DNA from: Arthrobacter sp. HY1533
Lineage (GTDB): Bacteria > Actinomycetota > Actinomycetes > Actinomycetales > Micrococcaceae
Assembly (NCBI RefSeq): GCF_027568515.1
Contig: NZ_JANKZF010000022.1
Coordinates: 1 to 64,000 of the forward strand
DNA length: 64,000 nucleotides
Direction: 5' to 3'
Shown here: positions 22,605 through 60,673 of the stretch, piece after piece
Position numbering within the stretch: the first letter of the stretch is position 1
Layout: the number at the start of each line of letters is the position of its first letter
Notes under the pieces: model-generated
The model's input: only the letters and a program-made list of their open reading frames with translations
Database searches by the model: none
Told to the model about the DNA's origin: nothing
Made by a program: the position numbers and the translations under genes

Positions 22605-22871
22605 TTAGGCCGAGGCGCGTTCCTGCTCGGACTTCTGGCGGTTCACCAGGGTCTTGACGTCGTTGAGGTCGTTGATGACCCGGTTGAGCTGCTGCTTGGA
22701 CTGCGGCCACTGGGTGCCCTTGAAGCGCTCCGCGTCCGGGCCCTTCCAGTTCACGGAGTTGACCTTGCCATCCAGGGTGCCCATGGCCGACTGGATCTGG
22801 TCAATTGCCGTTCCCAGCTTGGAGATCAGTTCCGCCATGTCCTGGGGATCGCTGCCGAGCATACCTGCCAT
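22605..22871 (-). CDS. WXG100-family protein (EsxA-like)
   Basis: This 88-residue helical-hairpin protein is of the ESAT-6/WXG100 superfamily, whose members are small substrates or co-factors of type VII secretion. The central turn carries the W-x-G signature in NWKGPDAERF (about residues 45-54), flanked by helices rich in Gln, Ile and Leu. I use the ATG at 22871 because AAAGGA lies 8 nt upstream; earlier in-frame starts add a cysteine-rich stretch unlike the family. It ends QKSEQERASA with no clear YxxxD/E export motif. It is the last gene of the locus, 110 nt downstream of the FtsK/SpoIIIE ATPase. No second Esx partner is present, so it may homodimerise. Confidence 0.92.
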   Translation of the reverse strand: MAGMLGSDPQDMAELISKLGTAIDQIQSAMGTLDGKVNSVNWKGPDAERFKGTQWPQSKQQLNRVINDLNDVKTLVNRQKSEQERASA

Positions 22872-22981
22872 GATGCACATCCTTTTTTCTAAGGTGGGGC
22901 CCGCCGGTGATTCCAACCGGGCTACTGAAATCAATCTAACAACACCCGCCGCGCAGGGCGATGGGCACATCTACCCACCCG

Positions 22982-25900
22982 TTACCGCGCGTGGTCCATG
23001 GTGTTGGCCACCTGCAGCTTGAATGCCTTGCCTCGACCCACCACATAGCCGCGGCCGGGGATGAACTTGTTGTGGTTCACGCGGCCCAGCGAGGTGTTCA
23101 TCAGGGTGTCGCCCTCAATGTCGCTGGGGTTCATGAGCAGGCCGCGGCGGCCGGCCTTGAACAGCCCGGACAGGCTCCAGGCGCCGGACCAGGTGGAGGT
23201 CTCGGCCTCGCCCACCACAAACAGGTTCGCCTTCACGGCGGCCTTGATGAGGTTGACCAGGTCCATCTCGGCCTCGGAGTCGGCAAACTCGGTGACGCCC
23301 TCGATGAAGAAGGCCACGGGCTCGCTCTCACTCTCCACGAGGTCGATGAAGCGCTGGAGCTGCGGTTCAAGCGCGCCGGCGGTGACGATGGCCTCGTCCC
23401 AGACCGGCAGGTTCGCCACGGCCGAGCGACGCGAGCCGAAGTACACGCGCCGGGTGCCCGGCGTCGAACGTTTCAGTGCCTCGGCGAGCGTGACCAGGGC
23501 CGTGGTGCGCCCGGACGACGGCGGTCCGGTGAGCATGAGCGCGCCGGTGGCCGGCAGCCCGGCCGGTTCCAGGTTGTGGTCGTCCACGCCGATCATGACG
23601 TGTCCCGGCGTTGCCGCGGGCAGCACGTCCAGATCCAGCAGCTCCGGCAGCGACTCCATGCGCGGGGCCTCCGGCACGCCCTGGCGGCGCATGGTCTCGG
23701 CCAGGCTGGCCACTTGGCGCGCCTGCAGGGCCAGGTTGGAGGTGCCGCCGAAGATGGCCATCTGGATTTCGCCGCCGTCCACCATGCCGCGCCCGGGGGG
23801 CGAGGCGGCCGTGAGCACGTCGCGCGGCAGGCCCAGGTTGGAGTAGTCCTCGGCCGTGGCCAGGCGCAGCACCAGCAGGCGCTGCACGGAGGACGCCAAC
23901 GACGCCGGCAGCGACTTCGGGCTGTCACCGGCAATGACAAGGTGGATGCCCATGGGACGGCCGTCGGTGGCGATTTGCTGCAGGGTCTCGAACTGGTTCA
24001 TGCCGGTGCGGAACTCGTACAGTTCACGGAAGGCGGCCAGGCCGTCCACCATGAGGATGATGCGGGGCTCGGCGGGCTTGTTGGCCAGGCGGCGGTATTC
24101 GGCGATGCTGCCGGCCTTGACCTGCGCAAAGCTCTCGGCCCGCTCCTCGATGAGTCCGCGGATGTGGCGCAGCAGCCGGCCCACACGCTCGGCATCCTCG
24201 GCGTTGATGATGCCGCCCACGTGCGGGAGCACCTCAAGCATCTGCAGGCCGTTGGAGGCCGCGTCGATGCCGTACACCTGCACGGGGCCGCCGCGCGGGG
24301 TGATGGCGGCGGCGATGGCAATGGTGCGCAGCGCCGCGGACTTGCCCGAGCCGCTGGCGCCCAGGATGGCCATGTTGCCGTCCCTGTCAGGTTCGAAGAA
24401 CACCGTGGGCTGGGCCTGGTGCTCGGGGTCGTCCATGACACCCAGCAGCAGGCGTTCGTCGGTGCGCGGCGTGGGCAGCTTGGAGAAGTCGTAAATTTCC
24501 GACAATTCGCTCAGCCACGGCTTGCGGGGCGGCTTGACGCCCAGCTCGACGGCGGCCAGGGAGATGTTGGCGACCACCTTGGCTATGTCGTTCGGGCCGG
24601 CCGATTCCTCCACGGGAACCGCCTCAAGCTCCTGCTCCCAGGGGGTGCCGGCGCCGAAGTCCATCTCCACAATGTCGATCCGGGGGCGCTGCGGGGTGCG
24701 GCTGGTCCAGCCGCCGGCGTAGCCGGTCTGGAAGCCCTGGATGCGCCCGGGCCCGGTCTTGGCGGCGCCGCGGCCGGGGATGGACGGGCTGAAGTACGCG
24801 GCAGTGCTTTCGCCCAGGATGTCCATGGAATCGTCCACGTCGGCCATGCGCAGCGCGATGCGCATGTTGGTGTTGGCGCGCAGGCTGTCCTTGATGACGC
24901 CGGAGGGGCGCTGAGTGGCCAGGATCAGGTGCAGGCCCAGGGAGCGGCCGCGCGCGGCAACATCCACCACGCCGTCCACAAACTCGGGCACCTCCTTGGC
25001 CAGCGCGGCAAACTCGTCCACCACAATGATGAGCGACGGCGGCGTCTCGGGGTCCGCCTCACGCTCCATGGCCAGCAGGTCCTTGGCCTTCTTGCGGTTG
25101 AGCAGGTGCTCGCGGTGGTGCAGTTCGGCGCGCAGCGAGGTCAGCGCCCGGCGCACCAGGTGCGGGGACAGGTCGGTGACCAGGCCCACCGTGTGCGGCA
25201 GCTGGACGCAATCGGCAAAAGCGGCCCCGCCCTTGTAGTCAACGAACAGGAAGGAGAGCCGGTCCGGGCTGTAGGCGGCGGCCATGCCCAGCACCCAGGC
25301 CTGCAGGAACTCTGACTTGCCGGCACCGGTGGTGCCGCCCACGAGGGCGTGCGGGCCCTCGGTCTTCAGGTCCAGGTACATGGGTTCCACGCCCTTGGAA
25401 CCCACCAGGGCACGCAGGGAGCCCTGGTGCTTGCGGTTCTTCACGGCGCGGGAGGCCACGGAGTTGTTTTCCAGCCAGCGGTCGGCAATCCCGGAGGTGC
25501 CCTCCACGATGTCGTGCCCGGCCAGGGCAACGTAGGAGACGCTGCGCGGCAGGTCGGAGTCGTCGTCGACCGGCTTGCCCGCGTCCACCACGGGGGCCAT
25601 CATGCGGGCCAGCTGCCCCGCCAGCTCGGCGCCAACGCTTTCGCAGCTGACGGGGTACGTGAGCTGGCCCAGCCGGACCTGGCCCGTGGTGGCGGTTTCG
25701 GCAACGTGCACAAAGTCGCGGCACGGTGCGGGCAGGGCCTCCACGGAGGTGGCCACCCACAGGATGTGCACGCCGACGTCGGCTCCGTGCTCCACGAGGC
25801 GGGTGAGCCGGGCGCGGTCCGCCTTGACGTCGTCCTCGATGATGACCAGCAGGGCGGGGGTGGCCGGCGGGGGCACTTCCCCCTTCTTGGGGTCCTGGGG

Positions 25901-27418
25901 TCCGCGGTGGGCGGCGCCGTGGGCGTTCATGTTGGCCCCGCGTGTCACCAGCAGGTCCTCCAGGGCGGCCAGCAGCACGCCGGCGGCGCCGTGGCCCGAG
26001 GCCAGGTGTTCGCCTGCCAGGGGCGAGTGCACTGAGCCCACATGCGGCAGCCACTGCAGCCATTCCCAGCGTTCCTTGGATTCGGTGGAGGTCATGGCGG
26101 CCACAGCGAGCTCCGCCGGGGAGTGCAGCCCGGCGGCCTGGAGCACCAGGGCACGGGCCACGTCGTCCACCACGCCGCGCGGTCCGGCCACGCCCAGGGC
26201 GCCGCTGTTGCGCAGCTGGGCCACCACGGGAACGGCGTCAATATCCTCGAACTCGGCCTTGAGGTCCTGAATCTCGGCCATGTATTCGGGCAGGGTGTTG
26301 TTGTCGCTGGGTGCCTTGACGGGTGTGCGGGACGGCTGGCGGCCGATGCCCAGGCGCATCGACAAAAACGCCCTGTGCTCGGGGCGGTGGGTCCACATGA
26401 GCGGGCCCAGCTTGTAGATGGCGTCCACTGTCTCGGCGGTGGACGGGCTTTCGGCCAGGCGCACGGCCCGCTCCACCTGCTGGCGGGCGGTCATTTGCCG
26501 GCGGAATTCGGCCGCGGCGCCGCGGAACTGCTCAATCGAGTCCCGCAGCTCCCGCTTGACGTTCATGTTCTGGTCCACCCAGCTGCCAATCATCATGACA
26601 GGCATCATGGCCATGAAGATCAGGCTGAACAGGCTCTTGGTGACGCCGAACATGATGGCGCCCATCAGGATCGGGGCCATCAGCATGACAATGGGGAAGG
26701 GCTGGCGGCGCGGCCGCTGCGGGCCGGCGGGCACCACCTGCTCCTCCACCTTGAAGTGCGGCACCACGCGCGGGGAACGGTTGAACTCCACGAGGGGCCC
26801 GGTGGGGCCGGACTGCGCGCCGCGGCCAAGGGCAACGACGGAGATGGTGGTTTCGCCCAGCGTCACCTCGTCGTAGGAGCCCAGGACTGCACGGGAAATC
26901 TGGGTTCCCTCCATCATGAGCCCGTTGGCGGAGCCGGTGTCCACAATTTCCACGGTGTCCCCCACCGTGATGCGGGCGTGCCGCTTGGAGGTCATGGGGT
27001 CGCTGAGGCGCACATCGGCGTCGAAGTCGCGGCCAAGGTAGCTGGTGCCTGCCGGCAGGGCAAACTCCTTGCCCGTGTCCGGGCCGGCCAAGACCCGCAG
27101 CGTGGCAACGGCCGGCCCGCGCTCGGCCTTGGCCAGTGTGAAGCTTTCGGAGACCTGGGTCAGGGACACCGTGGCGCCCGGGCGCAGCCCGGATTCGAGC
27201 AGGTTGGCCTCGGGCGGCAGGGTCCGCCCGCGCACACCGCCCACCATGGATTCCTCCACGAGCAGGGACAGGTTTTGCGGCGCGGCCGCCCCCTTGCGTG
27301 CGGGGTCGGCCAGGTACAGTTCCGTGGCGATGTCCCCCACCGAGGCGAGTCCGTCAACAGTGACGGCCAGGTTCGTCTCTGCCTGGGGTCCGCGCCGCAG
27401 CGTCAGCCTGATCCTCAT
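22982..27418 (-). CDS. FHA-FtsK/SpoIIIE secretion ATPase (EssC/EccC-like)
   Basis: This 1,478-residue membrane ATPase is predicted to be the motor of a type-VII-like secretion system. An N-terminal FHA- or ubiquitin-like region (1-95) is followed by a canonical FHA domain (about 105-200, with YLGRDFDADVRLSD, SKRHAR and SANGL). Two membrane helices lie at about 240-285, then three FtsK/SpoIIIE domains. Walker A motifs are GTTGAGKS (about 695), GASGSGKS (about 1020) and GPPSSGRT (about 1300); in the third the lysine is arginine. Domain 1 has a canonical Walker B (IIVVDEF). Domains 2 and 3 have MVDGL and FIEGV. The FHA-first layout is that of Firmicute EssC more than mycobacterial EccC. It overlaps the upstream FHA-wHTH gene by ATGA. 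Confidence 0.93.
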   Translation of the reverse strand: MRIRLTLRRGPQAETNLAVTVDGLASVGDIATELYLADPARKGAAAPQNLSLLVEESMVGGVRGRTLPPEANLLESGLRPGATVSLTQVSESFTLAKAERGPAVATLRVLAGPDTGKEFALPAGTSYLGRDFDADVRLSDPMTSKRHARITVGDTVEIVDTGSANGLMMEGTQISRAVLGSYDEVTLGETTISVVALGRGAQSGPTGPLVEFNRSPRVVPHFKVEEQVVPAGPQRPRRQPFPIVMLMAPILMGAIMFGVTKSLFSLIFMAMMPVMMIGSWVDQNMNVKRELRDSIEQFRGAAAEFRRQMTARQQVERAVRLAESPSTAETVDAIYKLGPLMWTHRPEHRAFLSMRLGIGRQPSRTPVKAPSDNNTLPEYMAEIQDLKAEFEDIDAVPVVAQLRNSGALGVAGPRGVVDDVARALVLQAAGLHSPAELAVAAMTSTESKERWEWLQWLPHVGSVHSPLAGEHLASGHGAAGVLLAALEDLLVTRGANMNAHGAAHRGPQDPKKGEVPPPATPALLVIIEDDVKADRARLTRLVEHGADVGVHILWVATSVEALPAPCRDFVHVAETATTGQVRLGQLTYPVSCESVGAELAGQLARMMAPVVDAGKPVDDDSDLPRSVSYVALAGHDIVEGTSGIADRWLENNSVASRAVKNRKHQGSLRALVGSKGVEPMYLDLKTEGPHALVGGTTGAGKSEFLQAWVLGMAAAYSPDRLSFLFVDYKGGAAFADCVQLPHTVGLVTDLSPHLVRRALTSLRAELHHREHLLNRKKAKDLLAMEREADPETPPSLIIVVDEFAALAKEVPEFVDGVVDVAARGRSLGLHLILATQRPSGVIKDSLRANTNMRIALRMADVDDSMDILGESTAAYFSPSIPGRGAAKTGPGRIQGFQTGYAGGWTSRTPQRPRIDIVEMDFGAGTPWEQELEAVPVEESAGPNDIAKVVANISLAAVELGVKPPRKPWLSELSEIYDFSKLPTPRTDERLLLGVMDDPEHQAQPTVFFEPDRDGNMAILGASGSGKSAALRTIAIAAAITPRGGPVQVYGIDAASNGLQMLEVLPHVGGIINAEDAERVGRLLRHIRGLIEERAESFAQVKAGSIAEYRRLANKPAEPRIILMVDGLAAFRELYEFRTGMNQFETLQQIATDGRPMGIHLVIAGDSPKSLPASLASSVQRLLVLRLATAEDYSNLGLPRDVLTAASPPGRGMVDGGEIQMAIFGGTSNLALQARQVASLAETMRRQGVPEAPRMESLPELLDLDVLPAATPGHVMIGVDDHNLEPAGLPATGALMLTGPPSSGRTTALVTLAEALKRSTPGTRRVYFGSRRSAVANLPVWDEAIVTAGALEPQLQRFIDLVESESEPVAFFIEGVTEFADSEAEMDLVNLIKAAVKANLFVVGEAETSTWSGAWSLSGLFKAGRRGLLMNPSDIEGDTLMNTSLGRVNHNKFIPGRGYVVGRGKAFKLQVANTMDHAR

Positions 27419-28119
27419 TCATCATCCGTTCCGCGTTGCGTGTCCAGCAGGGGCAGGTCATCCGGGGTGACCAGGTGGGAGGTGACGGCGTGCTCCACGA
27501 GCCGCGCCCGCCGGTTGGTGGCCAGCTTGCCGCCGCCGCCGCGCAGGCCCACCACGCCCACGCGGTCCAGCTTGTCGCACACATTGTCCAGCTTGCGGTT
27601 GAAGCGGGTCAGCGCCCAGCCCAGCCGCTTGGCGGCCTGCGCCGAGGACGGGATGGAGCTGAAGCCTGTGCCGCCGCGCCGCAGCATGGGCTCGGCGAGG
27701 GCCACGATGAGGGCCTTCTGCGAGGCCGTGAACACGACCGGGCCAATCGTGGTGGACCCGGCGGCGTCCTCCTCGCGGCTCTGCGACATGAACGACGGCG
27801 CGTCCAGGTGCACCGACAGCTCGTAGGTGGTGGGCCCTGCCGTGAAAATCACGTTGGTCTGGCTGAACACGAGCGGGATGCGCGCGCCCGGAGCCATCCA
27901 CGCCTGCATGCCGCCGGCGGCATCGGCAATCGTGGCCGAGAGCATGGTGCCGGCGTTGGTGAGCCACCAGATGCCGTCGTACTTGCTGACCTCCAGGAAC
28001 TTCCTGTGCAGGTACGGGTTGTCGTCCACCTCAATGTCGCCCTCGCGGCCGATACTGAAGACTGCATCGGGTGATGGCTCGTACCATTCGCCGCAAAAAT
28101 CAATGGTCAATTCAGCCAT
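27415..28119 (-). CDS. FHA-like domain plus winged-helix protein
   Basis: This 234-residue soluble protein has an FHA-like beta sandwich in residues 1-115 (FSIGREGDIEVDDNPYLHRK then ISSSH-like strands around WWLTNAG). A C-terminal segment of about 85 residues (SQKALIVALAEPMLRR, AAKRLGWALTRFNRKLDNVC, DKLDRVGVVGLR) reads as a winged helix. I do not know a named family for this pairing. It sits between the Ser/Thr kinase (54 nt upstream) and the secretion ATPase (4-nt overlap), so a phosphothreonine-dependent adaptor or regulator of the locus is likely. DNA binding is inferred from fold only. Confidence 0.7.
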   Translation of the reverse strand: MAELTIDFCGEWYEPSPDAVFSIGREGDIEVDDNPYLHRKFLEVSKYDGIWWLTNAGTMLSATIADAAGGMQAWMAPGARIPLVFSQTNVIFTAGPTTYELSVHLDAPSFMSQSREEDAAGSTTIGPVVFTASQKALIVALAEPMLRRGGTGFSSIPSSAQAAKRLGWALTRFNRKLDNVCDKLDRVGVVGLRGGGGKLATNRRARLVEHAVTSHLVTPDDLPLLDTQRGTDDE

Positions 28120-28173
28120 GATGGCGTCCCCCTGTTGGTGTTGCGGTTGTGGTGCGGTTGGCGGTCGGTGCCT

Positions 28174-29913
28174 CTAGGAACACTTCTTGCTCGCCTCCGA
28201 GGTGTGCCCGTTCTTGCGCACCAGCTGCACGGCAATGCATGACTCGTCGTTGGGTCCGTTGACCACAAAGACCCTGGTGTCGGTGGTGGGCTTGAACTCG
28301 CCCGAGTCCACGGCGCTGACCGGGGCCCACAGGTACTTGTCGCCCTCCTGCGGGTCCGGGTTGCTCCAGCTCCATTCGGCGCCGCCGTTCTTGGGCGTGG
28401 CGGTCAAATCCGTCACGGCCGGCACGGACACGTCCGCGCCAATGACCAGGGCCGGCGGCGGCGTGGTGGCCTGGGTTTGCAGCGCGTCCGGGTTCTTGGG
28501 TGCCCCCGTGTTGGTGAACACCACAATGCCCACCACGACGGCGGCCACAAGCACCAGCCCCGAGCCCAGTCCCAGCCACAGGCCTTTGCGGCCGGCAGGG
28601 GCCGGCTGTGCTTCCCCGGTGTGGGTTTCCACCGATCCGGCTGGCGGGGCCGGCATGAGGTCGCTGCGCTGGAGCGTGGTGTCAAGGACGTGGGGCGCCA
28701 GCGCGGGCGACGGCAGCGCGGGGCTGCCGGGCGCGGGTGCGTCGTTCCACTGGGTGGGCGAGGCGACGTTGGAGAATCGGCTGCGGACAGTGGGCCCGCC
28801 CACTGTGTCGCCGTCTGCCTGGGGCGCTGACGATTCCGTCGCCGGTGCCTGGGAGGGGACCGTCTGGCCGTTGCGGACAAGACCCGTGGTGTTTCCTGTG
28901 GAGCCGGTGGTTCCGGGCACGGTGCCCCGGTGCGTGGGGAAGCTGGGATTGGAGGTGGAGGCGTCGGGGTCGATCGAGACGATGCTGCGGACCCGGGTGG
29001 CCTCGGCGTGCTCCTCGGGACGGGCCTCCGCGGTTGCCACCTCCTGCTGCACCTCAAAGGGCGTGACGGAGAGGTTCAGGTCGGCCTGGATGCGCATGAG
29101 GGCACGGGCAAAGTCCTTGGCCGTGCTGTAGCGCGAGCTGGGTGACTTGGCCATGGCCGTGGCCAGGACCAGTTCCAGTGCCTCGGGGATGTCGGCGCGT
29201 CCCAGCCGGGGCAGGGGCGCGGCGTTGATGCGGGCCACGAGCTCGCGCTGGGAATTGTCGGCACCGGGGATCACGAAGGGTGAGTGGCCGGCCAGGAGCG
29301 AGTAGATGGTGGCGCCGAGCGACCAAATGTCCACCTTGACGCCGTCGGTTGCACCCGTGCCGAAGGACTCCGGGGGCGACCACGGGATGGACATGCCGCC
29401 GCCTTCCTCCTGCACGGCGTCCATGGTCCCCGAGATGCCAAAGTCGGTCAGGGCGGGGCGGTTGTAGTCGGTGATGAGGATGTTGGCGGGCTTGATGTCG
29501 CGGTGGGCGATCCCGGCCCGGTGCGCGGTTTCCACGGCCGAGGCCACCTGGATGCCGATTTCCAGTGCCCTGTCGGCGCTGAAGCGGCCCTGCCGGTACT
29601 GCATGTCCAGGCTGGGGCGGGAGCAGTACTCCATGGCCAGGTAGGAGTGGCCGGAATCGGTGATTTCGGCCTCGTAGATGGTCACAATGTACGGGTGTGC
29701 CGAGAGCTGGGCCATGAGGTTGGCCTCGGACTCAAAGCTGGCCCGGGCGCCCTCGGTTTTCAGGTCGGCAGTGAGGACCTTGACGGCAACCTTGCGCCGG
29801 GGCCGGTCCTGCTCGTACAGGTACACATCGGAGAATCCGCCCGAGCCCAGGACGGAGACAAAACGGTAGCCCGGCAGCGCGGGGGGCGCCGCCGGTGCAC
29901 GCCTGCTGCTCAC
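28174..29913 (-). CDS. Transmembrane Ser/Thr protein kinase (PknB-type)
   Basis: This 579-residue eukaryotic-type kinase has its catalytic domain in residues 15-280. It has the glycine loop VLGSGGFSDVYL, the ATP lysine in VAVKVL, the catalytic HRDIKPANIL (about 140), DFGISG (about 160) and SLGATIYSLLAGHSPF. A long Pro/Thr-rich juxtamembrane linker (about 290-440) leads to one membrane helix (about 441-464). The extracellular domain of about 115 residues looks FN3-like (VPAVTDLTATPKNGGAEWSW) and has two cysteines near its end; PASTA repeats are absent. It starts with a GTG overlapping the FHA gene stop. It likely phosphorylates the FHA proteins and secretion ATPase of the locus, with the PP2C gene as antagonist. 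Confidence 0.92.
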   Translation of the reverse strand: MSSRRAPAAPPALPGYRFVSVLGSGGFSDVYLYEQDRPRRKVAVKVLTADLKTEGARASFESEANLMAQLSAHPYIVTIYEAEITDSGHSYLAMEYCSRPSLDMQYRQGRFSADRALEIGIQVASAVETAHRAGIAHRDIKPANILITDYNRPALTDFGISGTMDAVQEEGGGMSIPWSPPESFGTGATDGVKVDIWSLGATIYSLLAGHSPFVIPGADNSQRELVARINAAPLPRLGRADIPEALELVLATAMAKSPSSRYSTAKDFARALMRIQADLNLSVTPFEVQQEVATAEARPEEHAEATRVRSIVSIDPDASTSNPSFPTHRGTVPGTTGSTGNTTGLVRNGQTVPSQAPATESSAPQADGDTVGGPTVRSRFSNVASPTQWNDAPAPGSPALPSPALAPHVLDTTLQRSDLMPAPPAGSVETHTGEAQPAPAGRKGLWLGLGSGLVLVAAVVVGIVVFTNTGAPKNPDALQTQATTPPPALVIGADVSVPAVTDLTATPKNGGAEWSWSNPDPQEGDKYLWAPVSAVDSGEFKPTTDTRVFVVNGPNDESCIAVQLVRKNGHTSEASKKCS

Positions 29914-31812
29914 AGCAGCCCGTCAAAGAGCAGGGACACGCCGTCGCCGAGTTCGGCGATGTCGCCGTTGAGCAGGATTGCCTCCTCGCCCTGGCTCAGG
30001 CGGCGCGGGGGCTGGCCCTCGCGCACCAGGACGGTGCCGTTGGTGGCCTTCAGGTCAACCAGGAGCACGTCCCAGCCGTCGAGGCGGACCTCCACGTGGG
30101 AGCGGGAGATGTCGCCGTTGCCGCTCTGGACCTGGACCAGGCGCGGCATGGCCCCGCCCATGACCCGGGAGACGGAGGGCTGGCGGCCAATGATGAGCGA
30201 ATGGTCCAGCTCCACCACCTCGCCGCTGGAAATGTGCATGGTGCCCAGGCGCGGGCGGCCCACTTCACGCGGCTCGGAGTTGATGGCGGCACCGCAGTCC
30301 GAGCACACGGCACGGCTGGGCGGGTTGGCATGGCCGTTGGGGCACATGCGTGCCAAAACCATGGGGCCCGTGGGCGGGCGAGGTTCCACATGGGCGGCGG
30401 CGGCCTGCTGGTCCGTGTCGAGCTCGCTGCGCATGATGGTCTGGCCGTCGTGGTCGGGGTCCCAGGGGGCGTCCGACGGCGCATCCGGCTGTGCGTCCAG
30501 CGGCGCGTCAGCCTGGGTGCCCACGGCGTCGCTGGCCGGAAGGCCGGCAACCGGGGTCTGCGCGCCGGGCTCGGTCTCGTGCCGGGCCCACGGCACGGAG
30601 TCAATCATGAGGGATTCACCGTCGCTGTCCTGCGGCTGGGCTGCCGCTTCCCCTGCGGCTTCATCCTGGGCTGCTGTGTCAACGGGTGCGGCCCCGGCTG
30701 CCGGCGGCATGGGGGGCAGCGGCGGCAGGGCGGCTTCCGCCGCTGCCTGCTCCTCCGGCTGGCCCTCCCCGTCAAGGCGCACGGCGGCGGACTCGACGCT
30801 TTGCGCCACTGTTGCGCCAAACAAGTAGTCGTAGTTGATCGTGAAGCCGTTGTCGGCGGCGTCCTCGGCCGACGGCGCGGCCTCACCCGTGCCGACGACG
30901 CCGTCCTGCCCAGCTGCAGCGTCTGCCTCCTGGTCGTCGTCGAAGGCGTTCCCTTCCGGGTCCGGCTCCGCGGAGGCATCGGCGGATGCGTCCTGGGCTG
31001 CTTCGTGCGCTGCAATGCCGGCGTCGGACTCTTCCTCCTCGAAGGGGCGGATGGTGAGGTTCAAGTCCGATTCGGCCCCGGCATCCAGGCCTTCCGGTTC
31101 GGTGAATTCCTCGAAGTCTTCCTCGGCATCGTCCTGCGGGAGGGCCACGGGTGCCAGCTGGGCGTTCCACTCGGCGTCGGCTGCCTCGGCGGCCATGGCA
31201 AACACTGCGTAGGCGTCCTCGTCCTGCCCGTCGTCAATGGGTTCCCCGGTTTCGCCGTCCACCTCGGTGTCCTGGCCCGTTTCCTGGGCCAGGGGACCAT
31301 CTGGCTCCTGCTCCGCCGCGAACGTGACGGGGGCAGCGGCGGGGGTGACGGCGTCGTGCATGGCGACGGGCACGGCGGGGGCGCCCATGGACAGGGACTG
31401 CAGGCACACCACGGCCTCGGAAAGGGGCAGGATCCGCGGGGATGCGCTGCCGCCGGGCTCGGCCAGGGTCAGGACCAGGGAGTCCGGCAGGGGCAGTGAG
31501 CGCTCGCTCCAGGTGGTGACGTCGCGGCCGGAGACGGTGTCGGTGCCGTCGGCCGAGGCCGCCACGAGGCTGATGTCCCCGCGCAGGATTGCGTGCAGGC
31601 GGTCGCTGCGGACCAGGATCGCAAAATCGGGCATGCCGGTCAGGCCGGTGCCGAAGCTCTCCGTCAGCTCGTTCAGGACGCCGTGGATGGTGGGGGTCTG
31701 CCCGAGGAAGTCCCAGAGGTGGTTGACAATGGCCGGGTCGGTGCGCCCGTCCAGTGCGATGACCGAGCCGGAGCGGACAATGCCAATCCATGAACCGGTG
31801 CTGTAGGTGCTG

Positions 31813-31820
<8 letters not shown>
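29910..31820 (-). CDS. Zinc-ribbon FHA protein with acidic linker
   Basis: This 636-residue protein has an N-terminal domain of about 190 residues with no family I recognise (STGSWIGIVRSGSVIALDGR at the start). A strongly acidic, Ala/Glu/Asp-rich linker occupies about 200-460. A short zinc-ribbon-like motif (CPNGHANPPSRAVCSDCG, about residues 490-507) precedes a C-terminal FHA domain (LIIGRQPSVSRVMGG, ISRSHVEVRLDGWDVLLVDL, KATNG). The FHA keeps the Arg, Ser-His and Asn residues that read phosphothreonine. The gene overlaps PP2C by 8 nt upstream and the kinase by 4 nt downstream, so kinase, phosphatase and reader are made together. Predicted cytoplasmic. Confidence 0.85.
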
Positions 31821-32807
<987 letters not shown>

Positions 32808-32811
<4 letters not shown>

Positions 32812-33512
32812 GCCCGGCCCACCACGAAGGAGCGGTCGCCAAAGTGAACGCGTGAGCCAACCTCGGCCAGGGCCGGGCTGCCGCCGGAAAGCGCGGTCCG
32901 CCCGCCTGCCGGGCTGGTGATGGCGCTGCCGTTGGTTGAGTTCCTGTCGGTCACCCACAGCCCCTCGGCGCTGGCGCGGACCAGCAGGTGTGTCTTGGAC
33001 ACGGACCGGCTGGTGTCGTGGACGGAAATGAGGCGCGAAATCATCTCCCCATCGTATCCGGCGGGGTTGCGCCCGATCAGCGCCAGGGCGCCGACGTCCT
33101 CGCTGCGGCCGTCGTCAAAGACCAGGCGCAGCGGCTGGACCGGGGCGCCCACGGGACGGACCCGGGTTTCCCCGGCGTCGTCGTCGGCCTGGGCCGCGGC
33201 CGCGAGCGTCTCCGGTGCCGGGGGCTGGAATTCACGCGGAGGTTCGGGCAGGGTCGGCTGGGTCACGCCGGGCACGGAGGTGATGGGGCCCTGCTGCATA
33301 ACAGGCTGGGCCGCGGGTGCGGCGGGCGGCGGGGCAAAGCCGTTGCCGGGCTGGGCGGGGCTGAACTGGCCCGACTGGATGGGCTGGTTGTGGAACTGCA
33401 CGGCCGGCGGCGCGAAGGGATCCACCTGCTCGGCCTTCTTCCGGCGGCGGCTGCCGCGGGCAGGGGCCTCCGGTGCGGCCGGCGCGGGAGGCACCGGCTG
33501 GTTCCACTGCAC
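32808..33512 (-). CDS. Proline-rich FHA protein, possibly split from the RDD gene
   Basis: This frame encodes about 234 residues. A Pro/Ala/Gln-rich segment of 120 residues precedes a C-terminal FHA domain (ALIGRNPAGYDGEMISRLIS, SVSKTHLLVRASAEGLWVTD, RNSTNGSAI). It has no credible ribosome site at its GTG. The frame is open back to a TAG at 33573-33575, and that TAG is the stop of the RDD gene in the same reading frame. The text on both sides of the TAG is a continuous proline/glutamine linker, so the two genes look like one RDD-FHA protein interrupted by a CAG-to-TAG change. Either it is translated separately, by read-through, or the fusion is broken. Confidence 0.75.
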
Positions 33513-33572
33513 GGGCTGGACGGTCTGGTCCGGCTGTGCCCACTGCGGCTGGGCCGGGGCCGGTGCCGGGAC

Positions 33573-34439
33573 CTAGGCAGCGCCCTGGGCCGGGCGGGCC
33601 ATGGGCGAGGAGACCTGTGAAACGGCGGGCATGCCGGCCGGAACAAAGTTGGCGCGCTCGGCGATGCCGCCGGTTTCCAGCGGGTCGCGGCCGGTGCGGA
33701 CGTTGAAGACAAGCGTGTGTGCCACCTTGTCGTGCCAGCCCTGCGCCTTGCCGTTGGAGTCCCAGGCGTTGGAGAGCACAACGAGCAGCGGGCCAATGGT
33801 GGGCACAATGGAGCTGACGTAGACGATCAAGTTGCGCAGGAAGATGGCCAGCACGCCGGCGGGGGTGCCCTCCATGCTGGTGGTGCGCAGCCCCAGCAGC
33901 AGGTTGCCCACGGTCTTGCCCGTCTTGGCTTCCCACAGCCACTGGAAAATGGCCCAGCCCAGCGACAGGACCGCGCCGATCCCCAGCAGGACCAGCAGCC
34001 AGGTCAAGTCCAGCACCTGTGAGTTGCCGGACGGGGTCACCTTGATGAGGGCGGCGCCCACTCCCCCGGCAACGCCCAGGATGATGCCGGGCACAAGGCC
34101 GTCAATGACCCAGGCGGCAAGCCTGCGGCCCGCGCCGCCTGGCACCAGTGCCGTGGCCGCGGCAATGCGCGGGTCCACGCCTACCTGGACGGGGGGCAGC
34201 ACCGCGGCGGCAGGAGAGGCCGCCACCGGGATGATCCCGGGAACGCCGGCCACGGGCGCCGCAAAGCCGCCAGCTCCGGCTGCTCCGCCCTGTCCGCCAG
34301 ACCCGCCGAGGGGCACCGTCGATGGCGCAGGGGAAGCCGCCCGGTTGGCCACCGAGGTTCCGCACAGGGTGCAGAAGGCCGCCCCTGGGGCCAGTGCCGC
34401 CCCGCAGTTCCGGCAGGGATCGGCCGCTTTTTGCGCCAT
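33573..34439 (-). CDS. Zinc-ribbon RDD-family membrane protein
   Basis: This 288-residue protein has an N-terminal double-CxxC zinc ribbon (CRNCGAALAPGAAFCTLCG, residues 9-27). A Gly/Pro-rich linker follows, then an RDD domain with three or four membrane helices (RRLAAWVIDGLVPGIILGVA from about 105; GWAIFQWLWEAKTGKTVGN near 160). The family signature Arg, Asp and Asp residues are partly visible. Function of RDD proteins is poorly defined; some transport ions or compatible solutes. The frame continues past its TAG into the downstream FHA gene, so the full product may once have been a membrane-bound FHA reader of about 543 residues. Confidence 0.85.
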   Translation of the reverse strand: MAQKAADPCRNCGAALAPGAAFCTLCGTSVANRAASPAPSTVPLGGSGGQGGAAGAGGFAAPVAGVPGIIPVAASPAAAVLPPVQVGVDPRIAAATALVPGGAGRRLAAWVIDGLVPGIILGVAGGVGAALIKVTPSGNSQVLDLTWLLVLLGIGAVLSLGWAIFQWLWEAKTGKTVGNLLLGLRTTSMEGTPAGVLAIFLRNLIVYVSSIVPTIGPLLVVLSNAWDSNGKAQGWHDKVAHTLVFNVRTGRDPLETGGIAERANFVPAGMPAVSQVSSPMARPAQGAA

Positions 34440-34456: not shown

Positions 34457-36967
34457 TTAGGACTTCTTCTTGAACTTCTCCAGGAGGGAGCGCATGCGCG
34501 CCCCGCCCTGGCCGTTGTCTTCGCCGCCGGCACGCAGGCTGCGCCCGCGTGCCTTGTCCCTGGCGTGCGCCTTCGCGTCCGCCAGCAGCGACCTCGGGGA
34601 GAACTTTGCCCGCTGCCGCTTCCAGAATCCTACCGAGCCGGTCATGCCGGTGACGGAATGTTCCACGTGTTGCCAGTAGAAGGCGACTTCCTCCTCCGTG
34701 GGCTGGCCCGGCCCGAAGATGGCGGCGTCGGCCCTCTCGGCCAGCAGTGCCGTGGTGGCCTGGCTCTCGGGGAAGGCGCCGTAGAGGGCCACGGCACTCT
34801 CGCGGCGGGTGCCGTTTGTGTCGATGCCGGCCCCAAGGTCGGTGGCCAGGCTGATGACTTCAGACCAGCCGCCGCCCACCCGGTCGGTGGGCTGCCCGGC
34901 TGTCAGGCGCCGCTTGCGCCGTCGTGCCTTGAGCACCACAACCAGGATCAGCGGGATGGCAATGACCAGGATCGGGATGGCGGCGACGCCCACGATCATC
35001 AGGATTGCGCCGAGGATGCCGGCAATCTTGTCCTTCTTGCCGTCGGTGTCCAGCGCGTCGGGGGCGCTGTCCGGGGGAAGGTCGGCCGGTTCCTGCGGCG
35101 GGGGCGGGGGCTGGAGCACCTGCGGCTTGGGCTTGGAGGCGTTCTGCGGCTCCGGCGGGTTGGGCACGTTGTCCTTGTCCGGCGTCGGGTTGAAGGGGAC
35201 CCAGCCCAGGCCGGCGAAGTTGACTTCCACCCAGGCGTGCACGTCGGCACCCTTGAGCTGCACCTTGGCGGCGCCGTTGTTGGGGTCCTTCTCATCGAGG
35301 TAGAAACCCATGACGACGCGTGCCGGTATGCCCATGTGGCGGGCCATGAGGACCATGGCCGTGGCGTACTGTTCGTCGTCGCCCACCATTTCCTTGCCGC
35401 TGAGCAGCTTGGTGATGCGCGCGGCGCTGTGGCCGGAGGTGGACGGCGCCTGCCCCTCCAGCCCGTTGCTGAACTTGCCTTCGCGCTGCAGGGCGCCCTC
35501 GAGTGCCTGCACCTTTTTCAGCGGGGTGTCGGCCTCGCCCACAATGTCATTGGCCTTGGTGCCCACCACGGCCGGGACGTTTTCCAGCTTGGGCAGGCGC
35601 ACGGAGCCGAAGTCGGAGCCGGCCAGCTTGTTCCCGTCGATGTTGGGGAACTGCACGTCCAGTGAGTAGGAGTCGCCCTTCCCGACGCCGGAGAGGTTCA
35701 GGGCGGTTCCGGATTCCTTGTTCAGGTACAGCGTGGGGGTCTGGCCCCCGGCGCTGTTGTAGCTCAGGCTCTGGGGTGACTGGACGGTGGGGATCCAGAC
35801 GCCGCCGTACCCGTCGATGGAAAGCCCGACGGCGGAGCCGCCTGCGGTGCCTCCGTGGCCCAGCGACTTGGGGTCGCCGATGGGGGCAAAGGATGCGGAG
35901 CTGTTGGGGTCCACGTTGAAGACCACGCCGTCGTAGTTGTCCATGGCGGCGATGCGGACCCGGCCGTTCTTCGGCAGCCCTTCCGCATCGAACAGGACAG
36001 TGTCCTTCTGGTTCTTGACGTAGTCACGGAACTTGGTCAGCGGCGACGGCAGCTCGTGCAGGTCCGGCGGCGGGACCACGGTGTCGCGCAGCACCTCGCG
36101 GCTGTTGCTGCCGGTCAGTGCCGGGGCGGCGGCCATGGTGAGCGCTCCGGCCACCACAATGACGCCGGCGGCCATGCCGATGCGGCGCAGCAGTGAGGTG
36201 CGGGCACCGGCCTTGTCCTGGACGGGCTGGTTGGCGGAGATGGAACCGGCCATTTCGCGTCGCAGCAGTTCATGCCGGTAGGCGAGCCAGGCAACGGCAC
36301 CGACGGTGATCAGCGAGCCGCGCAGCACGGGCAGGAAAAGCTCGGCCGTGCCGAACATGATGGCCGTGACGAACAGGACCAGCACGGGCAGCATGGCCCA
36401 GTAGGCGTTGCGCACCCGCCAGGCCAGGGTGCCCGCCGCAATGGCCGTGACAAAGGTCGCCAGGTACGGCACCACCATGACGTCAACGCTGCTGCCTACG
36501 GGTGCGGCCAGCGTCAGCAATTGCTTCCAGGAGAGCATGATGCCCAACAGCAGCCCGCGCAGCGATGCCAGGCTGGGCAGGAACCCCAGGACCGCCTCGT
36601 CGCGGGCGGCCAGGGCGCTGCCAAAGAGCATGTACACCAGCAGCGACAGCCCGGAGATGGTGACCAGGCCCAGGCGCCAGTGCGCACCGAGCGCGGCCAC
36701 CCCCAGGCCCAGGATGATGGCGCCAAAGCCTGCCAGCAGGTAGGCGGGGTCGTGGCCGAACGTGGGGCCGAAGCCGAGCACGGCGATGCCGAGCAGCACG
36801 GCCAGCACGCCGCCGTCGAGCGCAAAGTGCCACCAGGGGCGGCCGCCGGAGAACGCCGAACGCTTCCTGGCGGGGGCGCCGCCGGCGCGGTTTGCCGCGC
36901 GGTTGGCGGCACGGCTGGCGGGCTGGTTGTGCGGCGGTTGCCCTGCCGCGCTTCTGCGGGCGCTCAC
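34457..36967 (-). CDS. Transglutaminase-like membrane protein, catalytic residues lost
   Basis: This 836-residue TgpA/DUF3488-type protein has a basic N-terminus, about six membrane helices in residues 45-300, and a long extracytoplasmic part. That part contains a transglutaminase fold (about 505-600), one more helix near 665, and a cytoplasmic tail of about 150 residues. In the fold, the motif that normally reads GxCxxFA is GDDEQYATAM, so Cys is Asp. HAWVEV keeps the His. The normal DPTP is FNPTPD, so Asp is Asn. Two of three catalytic residues are therefore gone. It starts with a GTG overlapping the DUF58 stop, and MoxR, DUF58 and TGc genes usually travel together. Confidence 0.9.
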   Translation of the reverse strand: MSARRSAAGQPPHNQPASRAANRAANRAGGAPARKRSAFSGGRPWWHFALDGGVLAVLLGIAVLGFGPTFGHDPAYLLAGFGAIILGLGVAALGAHWRLGLVTISGLSLLVYMLFGSALAARDEAVLGFLPSLASLRGLLLGIMLSWKQLLTLAAPVGSSVDVMVVPYLATFVTAIAAGTLAWRVRNAYWAMLPVLVLFVTAIMFGTAELFLPVLRGSLITVGAVAWLAYRHELLRREMAGSISANQPVQDKAGARTSLLRRIGMAAGVIVVAGALTMAAAPALTGSNSREVLRDTVVPPPDLHELPSPLTKFRDYVKNQKDTVLFDAEGLPKNGRVRIAAMDNYDGVVFNVDPNSSASFAPIGDPKSLGHGGTAGGSAVGLSIDGYGGVWIPTVQSPQSLSYNSAGGQTPTLYLNKESGTALNLSGVGKGDSYSLDVQFPNIDGNKLAGSDFGSVRLPKLENVPAVVGTKANDIVGEADTPLKKVQALEGALQREGKFSNGLEGQAPSTSGHSAARITKLLSGKEMVGDDEQYATAMVLMARHMGIPARVVMGFYLDEKDPNNGAAKVQLKGADVHAWVEVNFAGLGWVPFNPTPDKDNVPNPPEPQNASKPKPQVLQPPPPPQEPADLPPDSAPDALDTDGKKDKIAGILGAILMIVGVAAIPILVIAIPLILVVVLKARRRKRRLTAGQPTDRVGGGWSEVISLATDLGAGIDTNGTRRESAVALYGAFPESQATTALLAERADAAIFGPGQPTEEEVAFYWQHVEHSVTGMTGSVGFWKRQRAKFSPRSLLADAKAHARDKARGRSLRAGGEDNGQGGARMRSLLEKFKKKS

Positions 36968-38295
36968 GCGACGGCCTTTCGAAGGACTATGGCCAGATCG
37001 TTCAGCTCGCCCAGGGTCAGGACGGTGAGATCGGCAATGTTGGCGCGGGCGGACTGTGCGCCCGTGAAGCAGCGCACGGCAAAGGCGCGCACGCCCGGCG
37101 GCACGGAGGCGGCCGCGCTGCGCAGCTGGGCGGGCGTCACCTTCGAACCCACCACGAAGAACACGACGGAGGCGTTGGGCACGGCGTCGGAGAGTGTGCG
37201 GGCCAAGTCCACTGAGGTGCCGCGGCGGCTGTGGCCCTCCAGCCGGGTCATGTCATCGAGCAGGTTTTTGCCCGTTTCGCAGCGGATGGGGCCGCGCTGG
37301 GTGATGACGCTCAGTTCCCGGTTTTCCTTGATGGCCTGCCGGCCCAGAGACGCCGCGGCGGAGATGGCCATCTCAAAGTCGTCATCCGACTCGTACTCGT
37401 CGGTGTTGACCGACAGGGCCACGGCCATGTGCGAGCGGCGCGTTTCCTCAAACTGGCGGACCATGAGCTTGCCCGTGCGGGCCGTGGTCTTCCAGTGGAT
37501 GTGCCGGCGGTCGTCGCCCGGCACGTAGTCGCGCAGTGCGTGGAAGGCGATGTCCGACGTCGACAGGTCCCGTGTGGTGAGTCCCTCAAGGTCCTTGAGG
37601 AAGCCGGCGGCCGGGCCGTCGAGCGAGGTGGTGCGCGGGTGCACGTAGAGGTCGGTGGGTTCGGTCCACAGCACCTGGCGGCGCAGCAGTTGCAGCGGGT
37701 CCGCGCGCACGGAGCGCACGGGGCCCACGGTGATGACGGCGCGGCGTGAGGTGGGGATGGTGAACAGGTCCTCGTGGACCTGCGAGGGCTTCATGCGTGG
37801 CAGGTGGAACAGCGCGGTGGCCTGGCCCACGGGCAGTTCCAGGGCTGCCGGCAGCACTGTGCGCGAGGACGTGTTGGCCACGGCAATGCTGCCCACGGCG
37901 TTGTCGCCCACGGCCACGCGGGTGCGTGCCAAATCCAGCTTCACCGCGTACATGGACGTGCCCAGGATGAATCCGACGGCGATGAGCAGCAGCACCAGGG
38001 CCAGGAGGGCCGCCACCTTGGCCTCCTGCCAGCCGAAGCTGGCGCCGAGGATCCACAGCACCAGGGCCGCGGAAATGACCACGATGCCCAGGGTGCTGAT
38101 GCTAGCCAGCGCCGGCACCACCCAGCGGCGGGTCCATGCGGCGACCTTTGACCAGACGGGGCCAACGTAGATGTTGGCCACCTTGGCCGCCTCACGCCAC
38201 AGGGACGTGGGGTGCAGCCTGGTGGGTGCCCCGTCGCGGCGGAAGGGCCGGGTGAGGAACTCCCCGGCCTTCCGTGCTCTGGATTTGATGCTCAT
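36964..38295 (-). CDS. DUF58 domain protein (VWA-like, MoxR-associated)
   Basis: This 443-residue protein has two membrane helices at about residues 60-115 and a C-terminal DUF58 domain. The hallmark is RDYVPGDDRRHIHW followed by KTTARTGKLMVRQFEE (about residues 255-285). The rest has a von Willebrand A-like fold (AVALSVNTDEYESDDDFEMA). DUF58 proteins work with MoxR ATPases in assembling or activating envelope or enzyme complexes. It starts 43 nt after the MoxR stop with AAAGG upstream, and overlaps the transglutaminase-like gene by 4 nt. Confidence 0.92.
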   Translation of the reverse strand: MSIKSRARKAGEFLTRPFRRDGAPTRLHPTSLWREAAKVANIYVGPVWSKVAAWTRRWVVPALASISTLGIVVISAALVLWILGASFGWQEAKVAALLALVLLLIAVGFILGTSMYAVKLDLARTRVAVGDNAVGSIAVANTSSRTVLPAALELPVGQATALFHLPRMKPSQVHEDLFTIPTSRRAVITVGPVRSVRADPLQLLRRQVLWTEPTDLYVHPRTTSLDGPAAGFLKDLEGLTTRDLSTSDIAFHALRDYVPGDDRRHIHWKTTARTGKLMVRQFEETRRSHMAVALSVNTDEYESDDDFEMAISAAASLGRQAIKENRELSVITQRGPIRCETGKNLLDDMTRLEGHSRRGTSVDLARTLSDAVPNASVVFFVVGSKVTPAQLRSAAASVPPGVRAFAVRCFTGAQSARANIADLTVLTLGELNDLAIVLRKAVA

Positions 38296-54098: not shown

Positions 54099-54117
54099 CG
54101 GCCGGCTGCCAAGCTGG

Positions 54118-60294: not shown

Positions 60295-60411
60295 GGGAAA
60301 CCTTTAATCATCCGAATCTTGTGGGCATTCGGGTACGAACAACTGCCCGCCCGCTAAAGGCGCCGCTGCAATCCTACCGGATTGATCCACATGATGGGCT
60401 AAAGGTTTCCC
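60295..60411 (-). promoter_or_regulatory. Leader with 12-bp pairing that masks the giant-gene ribosome site
   Basis: On the minus-strand RNA, GGGAAACCUUUA (60411-60400) is perfectly complementary to UAAAGGUUUCCC (60306-60295), which contains the ribosome site of paralogue 3 and abuts its AUG. The intervening loop of 93 nt holds a smaller hairpin (CCGAAT/ATTCGG, 60312-60332) and a second CCUUUAGC copy (60360-60353) able to pair with the same UAAAGG. This is the layout of a translational switch. No known riboswitch class is recognised. Confidence 0.45.
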
Positions 60412-60433
60412 GGCCCTGGCTTCAGGCCCCGCC

Positions 60434-60673
60434 CTACCTCTCGGGAACCCAGGATGGTGCCGTGGCCCCCGCCCCCGTGAGGCTGTCGCAACGGATCAAC
60501 TGCGGGCCGATCCGTTCCATGGCGCACTGCTGGGTGGTTGACGGCAGAATGATGCCGCCGCTGGTCCCCGGATCCAGTCTCGCTGAAGCGGGTGCTGTGA
60601 CGGCGAAAGCCAGGAAAAGGACGATGGCGCCCACCCCTGCCCGCCGCGTTGCCTTGGTGCTGGTTAGTGACAT
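60434..60673 (-). CDS. Small secreted two-cysteine protein
   Basis: The 79-residue product has a basic start, a hydrophobic core (GAIVLFLAFAVTA) and an AxA signal-peptidase site near residue 31 (APASA). The mature peptide is therefore about 48 residues, with two cysteines 12 apart (QQCAMERIGPQLIRCDS). GAAAGG lies 7 nt before the ATG. I recognise no family. It is the first gene of the minus-strand locus, 139 nt upstream of the first giant protein, and divergent from the LuxR regulator. A secreted signal, inhibitor or fibre accessory peptide is possible; the two-cysteine pattern recalls the Cys-rich tails of the giants. Confidence 0.65.
   Translation of the reverse strand: MSLTSTKATRRAGVGAIVLFLAFAVTAPASARLDPGTSGGIILPSTTQQCAMERIGPQLIRCDSLTGAGATAPSWVPER

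Follow-up and report, generated by a model that had tools for sequence, protein, structure and literature searches.

A co-directional run of genes in Arthrobacter sp. HY1533 may represent a previously undescribed type VII secretion system (T7SS) variant of Actinomycetota, merged with a surface-protein operon of the PFNA type, in which a kinase would gate export of a WXG100 protein and Sec-exported giant proteins would span the envelope, a reading to which we give about even credence. The stretch analysed, referred to here as the window, comprises positions 1–64,000 (64,000 nucleotides) of contig NZ_JANKZF010000022.1 (assembly GCF_027568515.1). The locus is real, and its neighbourhood is more than chance, since gene content is conserved across families and the ATPase and DUF58 genes share presence or absence in 22 of 22 congeners: 18 carry the ATPase, the same 18 carry DUF58 on the same contig, 9.2–10.6 kb away, and the remaining four lack both. 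Beside ATPases of the window clade, a MoxR, DUF58, or transglutaminase (TGM) gene (thresholds 300, 200, and 200 bits) is found at 12 of 16 loci versus 1 of 59 others, in a count that leaves out 5 of 80 loci (L191, L201, L224, L229, and L231). Based on this enrichment and the congener linkage, a chance neighbourhood was rejected. An earlier sequence-only reading had described a co-directional minus-strand locus linking a type-VII-like motor with phospho-signalling in a non-ESX layout, and to this extent it is borne out.

That reading counted sixteen genes; we support 15, all on the minus strand between 22605 and 60294, where the last giant begins (Table 1). Frames 60399–60845 and 60664–61461 look spurious by eye and were rejected, as was ORF 28112–28579, which is similarly spurious-looking and has no Pfam match. 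Overlaps of 4–8 nt, said to be many, do exist, but at only 5 of the 14 junctions; the remaining gaps are 11–228 nt. The strong terminator and the divergent regulator placed at the two ends are both confirmed. The regulator also adjoins the locus in G016 (64% identity), and was not seen in the stretches of six other relatives compared. Neither a sigma-70-like promoter in 60200–60800 nor an RNA element over the gathering score in an Rfam search was found. The reported absence of EccB, EccD, EccE, and mycosin, and hence the non-ESX layout, holds for the 31 window proteins searched with Pfam. Ten of these form the left flank, where ESX core genes, if present, would have told against the sequence-only reading by its own account; they are of ABC transporter, GatB, amidase, LssY_C, and CoA-transferase types or have no match, and include no ESX genes. 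For EccE and mycosin the absence refers to window proteins, and a genome search with EccB was uninformative, its control being silent. The DUF222-HNH gene between the giants is probably a passenger, because no counterpart exists in the operons of seven relatives compared. HNH-type matches of 59–62 residues occur elsewhere and on the other strand in the stretches of three of these seven.

Table 1. Features of the locus and its borders, in window positions
Feature	Position	Strand	Remarks
Intrinsic terminator of the run	22548..22583	-	16-pair stem, T-rich tail
WXG100 protein, TsxA-like	22605..22970	-	PF06013
FHA-FtsK ATPase, TsxC-like, 1478 aa	22982..27418	-	Ubiquitin-like (Ubl-like), FHA, two TM-like segments, FtsK/AAA domains
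Ubiquitin-like (YukD/EsaB-like) stretch of ATPase, ~aa 1–92	27143..27418	-	Likely, from profiles
FHAwH protein, 234 aa, conserved, adjoining ATPase	27415..28119	-	No Pfam match
Ser/Thr kinase, Pkb2 homologue	28174..29913	-	One TM-like segment, ~110-aa ectodomain, weakly FN3-like
636-aa protein, C-terminal FHA domain	29910..31820	-	Pfam, clear
PP2C phosphatase	31813..32811	-	Pfam; longest ORF to 32958, ATG at 32811 chosen
234-aa protein, weak FHA domain	32808..33512	-	18.5 bits, cut-off 20.7
Zinc-ribbon and RDD membrane protein	33573..34439	-	Pfam
TgpA-type membrane protein, transglutaminase core (TGM)	34457..36967	-	Pfam
DUF58 protein	36964..38295	-	Pfam; two TM-like segments
MoxR AAA+ ATPase	38339..39316	-	Pfam
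Giant 1, 2038 aa	39417..45533	-	N-terminal signal/anchor, conserved head, 11 Big_9 and 2 fn3 stretches
DUF222-HNH gene	45655..47580	-	Pfam; probable passenger
Giant 2, 2045 aa	47809..53946	-	11 Big_9 and 2 fn3 stretches
Giant 3, 2058 aa	54118..60294	-	9 Big_9 and 3 fn3 stretches
Divergent AAA_16-LuxR regulator, 1020 aa	60728..63790	+	AAA_16 and LuxR/GerE

The FHA-FtsK ATPase claimed by the sequence-only reading is recognized by Pfam (FtsK_SpoIIIE, 1.6e-52; FHA, 3.2e-10), and provides the EccC/EssC-type FtsK ATPase expected of a type VII locus. In its FHA domain, G129 R130, S144, H147, and N165 G166, which we take to be the phosphothreonine site, are invariant in 13 orthologues. The N-terminus matches YukD in a profile–profile comparison (E 4.7e-4, probability 32.5%, 81 columns, 7% identity) with a score of 24.8, where 100 column shuffles reached 12.9 at most, and its best match among PDB profiles is a redesigned ubiquitin (E 0.0037). 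The YukD model run on the window ATPase itself gave no reported match, and a genome search with the YukD family PF08817, which presumably also covers EccD, returned nothing above the cut-off. The N-terminus is likely a fused ubiquitin-like component, the one reported missing from T7SSd, and perhaps supplies the function of EsaB/EccD-type ubiquitin-like proteins; the fusion would suggest an answer to the stated puzzle of why T7SSd lacks such a protein. A fused ubiquitin-like stretch is hinted at in a bifidobacterial TsdC too.

The claim of one WXG100 protein holds insofar as the product matches PF06013 (E 1.3e-4) and has a WKG motif, but its 22.6 bits stay under the cut-off of 27.3; judged by eye, the true start is likely near 22871 (MAGMLGSD..., about 88 residues). 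In favour of export, some relatives have longer proteins with weak WXG100-type matches, all under Pfam cut-offs, encoded downstream of the ATPase within a few kb; one of these proteins also carries an alpha/beta-hydrolase domain. No EssB/EccD/EccB-like membrane partner was identified, which counts against an export machine.

The proposed Ser/Thr kinase (4.7e-42), PP2C (1.6e-12), RDD, MoxR, DUF58, and transglutaminase genes are all recovered by Pfam. For the three further FHA frames also proposed, the outcome is mixed: 29910–31820 is clear, 32808–33512 is under the cut-off, and 27415–28119 has no match. The last of these encodes the protein for which we coined the label FHAwH, being FHA-like and winged-helix-like by eye, and which adjoins the ATPase or the kinase in several families, including a Bifidobacteriaceae MAG (L224). 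In G006, MoxR is fused in frame with DUF58. The kinase profile gives 256–322 bits for four PFNA kinases versus 94–99 for two TsdD-type kinases, and the kinase ectodomain aligns with that of bifidobacterial Pkb2; Pfam fn3 was not reported in the kinase at E 0.1.

The Bifidobacterium PFNA operon is given as pkb2-fn3-aaa-atp-duf58-tgm-prpC-hyp-fha in the accessible part of PMC8430577. Sensing of host immune signals has been proposed for bifidobacterial FN3. It has in common with the window a homologous kinase including the ectodomain, a giant FN3 protein including the head, MoxR, DUF58, TGM, PP2C, and FHA. The five core genes pkb2, fn3, moxR, duf58, and tgm run in one direction in the window, and both kinase and giant are homologous to bifidobacterial Pkb2 and FN3. 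The PFNA order, with pkb2 before fn3, is not kept: the window has its kinase at the opposite side of the core, in a position downstream from both TGM and PP2C. Relative G031 retains the PFNA core order. Beyond PFNA, the window has the FHA-FtsK ATPase, WXG100, FHAwH, further FHA and RDD genes, and three tandem giants, and the terms "FtsK" and "WXG100" are absent from the text of PMC8430577 and from that of PMC6803598. The mycobacterial moxR1-DUF58 operon, compared with PFNA by PMC12067865 itself, resembles the window in that MoxR adjoins DUF58, but no giant, kinase, or FHA-FtsK gene is mentioned in the accessible part of that source.

The three Ig/FN3 proteins of about 2,040 residues that the sequence-only reading had noted are found at the expected length, with the predicted repeats. 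They have a Sec-type N-terminal hydrophobic segment, which in giant 2 falls under the 1.8 threshold used, and are without a C-terminal TM-like segment; the C-terminal tip of giant 1 carries a cysteine. The head aligns with the bifidobacterial FN3 head at 25% identity, the best PDB match has E 0.5, and a Pfam search on the head led nowhere. By eye, the head looks beta-propeller-like. That reading went on to propose a kinase-controlled FtsK-type motor that exports or assembles the giant fibres itself, which would agree with the close linkage of motor and giants in most genomes having both. Because the N-termini are of Sec type, however, export of the giants by the ATPase is unlikely. Homologous giants with MoxR, DUF58, and TGM also occur without a window-type ATPase, in four Bifidobacteriaceae genomes with PFNA and on a plasmid of Actinomyces oris (41 kb examined and free of the ATPase, the chromosome being outside the search), and 27 of 76 genomes have giant and ATPase at separate places. 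For these three reasons the proposal is not supported, and we regard it as improbable.

The 76 genomes are those of the order having both genes, counted with one row per genome (E 4e-253 or better) and leaving out second copies or fragments in G659, G688, G564, and G394. Giant and ATPase lie within 45 kb in 49; in the other 27 they are far apart on one contig (12) or on different contigs (15), some of these genomes being drafts. Among 104 genomes with the ATPase, a further 28 lack a giant to which a place is assigned, four of them having a weak match, in a search that misses divergent heads such as that of G031. A phylum sample of 346 genomes yields only 20 that pass E 1e-130, some of them outside the window ATPase clade. 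Unlinked giants and motors in relatives, which the sequence-only reading had named as evidence against itself, are thus found in part. They weaken a one-machine reading, as do the four bifidobacterial genomes with PFNA and no window-type ATPase, and would suit two independent modules, one type-VII-like and one PFNA, held together by shared regulation or chance. Such modules are also seen in Bifidobacteriaceae G441, where a T7SSd cluster lies about 13 kb from a separate PFNA operon. Against independence, the two parts are linked in all 18 congener carriers and both missing from the other four, and FHAwH sits beside the ATPase or the kinase across families, L224 included, so we consider the absence of a joint machine unlikely as well.

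The kinase, FHA-ATPase, and Ig-like giant of T7SSd and T7SSe (Garrett et al. 2024; PMC11217815) provide the closest parallel among type VII systems. The window shares with both an FHA-FtsK ATPase with conserved phosphothreonine site, a membrane kinase, a giant Ig-like protein predicted to be secreted, and probably a WXG100 protein, as in TsdA, TsdC, TsdD, and TsdI; with T7SSe it further shares a PPM phosphatase together with an FHA protein (PMC11217815). Unlike these systems, it has MoxR, DUF58, and TGM and a likely ubiquitin-like stretch fused to the ATPase, and its ATPase forms a separate clade (support 100/99) in a tree of 44 of 116 rows. Grouping with a bifidobacterial T7SSd ATPase (AU p 0.004) or the coriobacterial T7SSd-like L228 (AU p 1e-74) was rejected, in a tree without Olsenella uli TsdC whose rows were chosen, and tested groups named, after a first, larger tree that left out 7 of 122 rows (L164, L179, L219, L224, L226, L229, and L231). 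No kinase is present among six proteins scanned at the L228 locus. T7SSd also features TsdH and, in TsdI, a giant with signal peptide and C-terminal TM segment; no TsdH-like small one-TM protein is found among the 15 genes, the window giants do not end in such a TM-like segment, and a giant-profile search of bifidobacterial TsdI gave no match. Membership in T7SSd as defined was rejected from the tree and AU tests, and is very improbable. With T7SSb (EssC/YukD) and T7SSa (ESX), the window has the EssC-type FHA-ATPase layout and a probable WXG100 protein in common; it differs from T7SSb in that the YukD family is not above the cut-off in the genome and the ATPase falls outside the Bacillota clade, and T7SSa EccC is not knowingly in the tree. 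Least credible of all is a PFNA-type locus chiefly sensing host immune signals, since the homologous kinase ectodomain and giant head, and parts of the locus in oral Actinomyces and a Bifidobacteriaceae MAG, are set against ATPase-clade carriers in Pseudarthrobacter, Cellulosimicrobium, and Nocardioides, which we take to be environmental genera.

For a type VII variant merged with a PFNA-type operon, we infer the mechanism, including secretion of the WXG100 protein, from sequence. The giants would be exported through Sec and form long stalks in the envelope, with an N-terminal anchor or a cleaved signal, conserved heads, and variable C-terminal tips, and MoxR, DUF58, and TGM would mature or install them. 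Through its ectodomain, the kinase would sense either the envelope or the giants. Its phosphorylation signal, which PP2C would undo, would be recognized by the FHA proteins as well as by the FHA domain of the ATPase, and in this way export of the WXG100 protein, along with partners headed by WXG100, may be switched on. More tentatively, the locus could define a new type VII subtype, common in one order and scattered beyond, in which the ubiquitin-like EsaB/EccD component has become the N-terminal part of the motor, gating is by a Pkb2-type kinase via FHA domains, MoxR-matured giant Ig/FN3 stalks form an envelope-spanning contact arm or conduit, a role proposed for TsdI/EsaA, and bifidobacterial PFNA is the surface half left over once the motor was lost or separated.

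The assertion that no such system has been described holds for the union of the two parts, of which a literature search found no report, but not for the halves, both of which are published (PFNA in the accessible part of PMC8430577; T7SSd/e in PMC11217815). The locus joins two literatures not mentioning each other's parts, that on PFNA and host immune sensing and that on kinase-bearing type VII systems, and it opens phospho-control of type VII motors to testing in laboratory actinobacteria that are not pathogens. The functional slot of the ATPase can be filled from elsewhere: at the L173 locus of Microbacterium sp. SZ1, the FHA, kinase, and FHAwH genes are directly followed by an ATPase from a different lineage.

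The locus unites a type-VII-like, kinase-linked gene set for putative export with a surface operon of the PFNA kind, the bifidobacterial pkb2-fn3-aaa-atp-duf58-tgm-prpC-hyp-fha arrangement. It lies in a 4.3-Mb genome of 68 contigs (the window is on contig C8), and both its composition and its conservation are solid. Of the sixteen co-directional minus-strand genes claimed by the sequence-only reading, the minus-strand run stands and 15 genes are supported. The left flank encodes ABC-transporter, GatB/amidase and other proteins, with no ESX gene among the ten proteins scanned there. As the longest ligA frame overlaps the operon terminator, the true ligA start is probably further downstream.

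Features of the locus and its borders (window coordinates)
Feature	Coordinates	Strand	Description
Locus	60294 to 22605	minus	15 supported genes
Gene order, first half		minus	three giants (DUF222-HNH gene between two), MoxR, DUF58, TgpA-type transglutaminase (TGM), RDD
Gene order, second half		minus	FHA protein, PP2C, second FHA protein, Ser/Thr kinase, FHAwH, FHA-FtsK ATPase, WXG100
FHAwH (our label)		minus	conserved 234-aa protein between Ser/Thr kinase and FHA-FtsK ATPase
DUF222-HNH gene	45655-47580		inserted between giants 1 and 2
Terminator, 16-pair		minus	3' of WXG100 gene, before ligA
ligA, longest ORF	20178-22565	same as locus	beyond terminator, which it overlaps
LuxR-type regulator		divergent	other end of locus

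The ATPase is closely tied to the surface genes within the genus. A full-length ATPase (79-89% identity) is found in 18 of 22 same-genus genomes, and DUF58 accompanies it in every one of these, 9.2-10.6 kb away on a shared contig; the other four (G005, G010, G018, G021) have neither, the sole ATPase match in G005 being 33% identical and of another type. MoxR, DUF58, TGM and a giant are present in all seven relatives' stretches, with the ATPase just outside the fetched stretch in G016. One of these relatives, G006 (L071 region), has MoxR and DUF58 in a single fused frame of 784 aa, which supports that they are direct partners. Six of the seven stretches hold one giant and that of G017 two, compared with three in the window; two giant matches are common in Micrococcaceae of the order-wide sample (e.g., G002, G045, G443). 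Among twelve further genomes, the whole set occurs in G495 and, outside the class, in G244, a partial set in G256, G207 and G133, and the kinase-bearing type VII subtype T7SSd of bifidobacteria in G617 and G441, while G170, G379, G214, G068 and G272 have little besides the ATPase within the fetched stretch. In a named set of 80 loci (5 set aside), counted over the DNA fetched per locus, MoxR, DUF58 or TGM is near the ATPase in 12/16 window-clade loci vs 1/59 others.

The proposed linkage of giants and ATPase holds only in part across the order. Among 347 genomes, 104 have a window-type ATPase, defined by score and not by tree (E 4e-253 or better), and the position of a giant head is listed for 76 of these: at most 45 kb from the ATPase in 49, elsewhere on its contig at a distance of 0.1-3.2 Mb in 12, and on different contigs in 15, so that linkage is seen in 49/76 and fails in 27/76. 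The remaining 28/104 are without a listed giant, although four (G408, G512, G548, G564) have a weak genome-table match and the giant-head search missed G031, which has a giant. The distant and unlinked cases, with those lacking a listed giant, indicate that the two halves are separable. In a phylum-wide sample, 20/346 genomes have an ATPase match past E 1e-130, and the tree places several of these ATPases outside the window clade.

In the surface half, the order kinase-giant-MoxR-DUF58-TGM in G441, G510, G573 and G550 is that described for PFNA in PMC8430577, and in G573 it is followed by PP2C and FHA. We infer that these genomes (family f4) are Bifidobacteriaceae because G510 has an fn3-moxR fusion, which PMC8430577 reports for B. 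breve. As judged by score, all four lack a window-type ATPase. The family does not lack the motor altogether, since contig L224, from a Bifidobacteriaceae MAG, encodes FHA, kinase and FHAwH together with an incomplete ATPase (1099 bits). G031 combines the PFNA core order with the ATPase. Giant heads can be aligned from the window to bifidobacteria (alignment A6), and the kinase ectodomain is common to both, many copies showing paired cysteines and an NPDP-GD-Y-W motif. Its resemblance to FN3 is only weak (E 0.0027, probability 11%; it scores 20.5, where 60 shuffles reached 13.5 at most); Pfam fn3 gives no match on the kinase at E 0.1. Among PMC open-licence papers, none was found that combines WXG100 and FtsK with an operon of the PFNA type. 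The terms FtsK, WXG100 and type VII are absent from PMC8430577 and PMC6803598, as are fibronectin, MoxR and transglutaminase from PMC11217815.

Several individual layouts were also noted. A near-full copy of the locus lies on the 1.35-Mb megaplasmid of Arthrobacter sp. StoSoilB13, with ATPase and TGM each split over two frames (decay or sequencing error). A 415-kb plasmid of Actinomyces oris WVU627 (L121) carries PFNA-type giant, MoxR, DUF58, TGM and RDD, with kinase and FHA on the opposite strand; no match to an FtsK-type ATPase was found in 41 kb. In the Bifidobacteriaceae genome G441, ~13 kb separate the PFNA operon from a T7SSd gene set on the opposite strand (C2, ~391-405 kb; L103, L104), and MoxR-ATPase distances suggest the same layout in G617 and G496.

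The ATPase carries an FHA domain, two TM-like segments and FtsK/AAA domains. The FHA residues GR...S..H...NG, which we take to be the pThr site, are invariant in 13 orthologues. In a tree of 44 ATPases, not knowingly including T7SSa EccC, the 17 window-clade rows are united (support 100/99), and eight Bacillota ATPases with that of the coriobacterial locus L228 are set apart (100/100). The named row closest to the window is Pseudarthrobacter, also of the Micrococcaceae. Grouping the window clade with the bifidobacterial T7SSd ATPase (p 0.004) or with L228 (1e-74) was rejected, the p-values being weakened as the constrained groups were named after an earlier quick tree. The T7SSd set was identified in G441 by gene content against PMC11217815, the tree row being its counterpart in G617; it comprises a WXG100-like protein (97 aa), a kinase (577 aa), a one-TM protein (147 aa), the ATPase TsdC (1523 aa) and a 1798-aa protein with hydrophobic segments at both termini. 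L228 resembles T7SSd in encoding WXG100, an FHA-ATPase and an Ig-like giant; a scan of six proteins there found no kinase. In Microbacterium loci L173 and L166, the slot beside FHAwH holds an ATPase of a different clade, which may mean that these loci have exchanged their motor.

According to PMC11217815, no ubiquitin-like protein was found in T7SSd, unlike other subtypes. In the window-clade ATPase, the first ~92 residues match a YukD profile built from nine proteins, three under the Pfam cut-off, over 81 columns (E 4.7e-4, probability 32.5%, score 24.8; controls: maximum 12.9 in 100 column shuffles, FHA 12.7, FHAwH 15.3). Against PDB profiles, a redesigned ubiquitin comes first (E 0.0037; next 0.49). 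Of 20 members scanned singly, two match UBX and one YukD, all weakly, the window itself has no match, and five single-member family matches look like chance. Streptomyces-type N-termini match the window clade strongly (E 7.9e-11); the bifidobacterial TsdC N-terminus matches the Streptomyces type (1.1e-5) and the window clade (8e-4 over 28 columns), with no match to YukD directly (0.11). The coriobacterial N-terminus gives no match (0.29), and the window's genome has no YukD member above cut-off (best E 0.197). On these profile comparisons, the window-clade N-terminus is a candidate ubiquitin-like stretch.

Gene content, homology, linkage and FHA residues are observed directly; the joint mechanism is our hypothesis. 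At their N-termini the giants carry a short positively charged segment, then a hydrophobic one that ends in (A/S/T)TA-D, which points to export by Sec. Pairwise identity of the window's three giants is 53-62% overall but drops to 29-38% over roughly the final 240 residues, suggesting conserved stalks with varied tips. MoxR-DUF58-TGM may mature or install the giants, since their genes still accompany giants in the loci lacking the ATPase. The kinase would report on the envelope via its small ectodomain, PP2C would reset the signal, and the phospho-mark would be read by the FHA proteins and the ATPase FHA domain.

The putative cargo is WXG100 proteins. Some relatives encode, close to the ATPase, a 378-aa protein that pairs a weak WXG100 match with an alpha/beta-hydrolase one, a 423-aa protein with a weak WXG100_2 match, and a 407-aa protein whose longest frame has WXG100 at its C-terminal end; every one of these WXG100 matches is under cut-off. 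The window's genome has a second EssC-like ATPase, another candidate exporter, on contig C31 and, away from the locus, two longer WXG100-headed proteins, one above cut-off. These (317 aa, L239/L257, G000:C43:338165; 291 aa, L240/L258, G000:C43:94929) have hydrophobic, glycine/alanine-rich, effector-like C-termini, and their genes adjoin, by eye, thyA/DHFR-like and typA-like genes. A solo second WXG100 gene with terminator lies at G000:C57:151607-151949 (L256 7607-7949), where no secretion genes were recognised by eye in 16 kb; compared with window 22542-22885, it shows 95.9% DNA identity over 344 columns and encodes an identical 91-aa protein.
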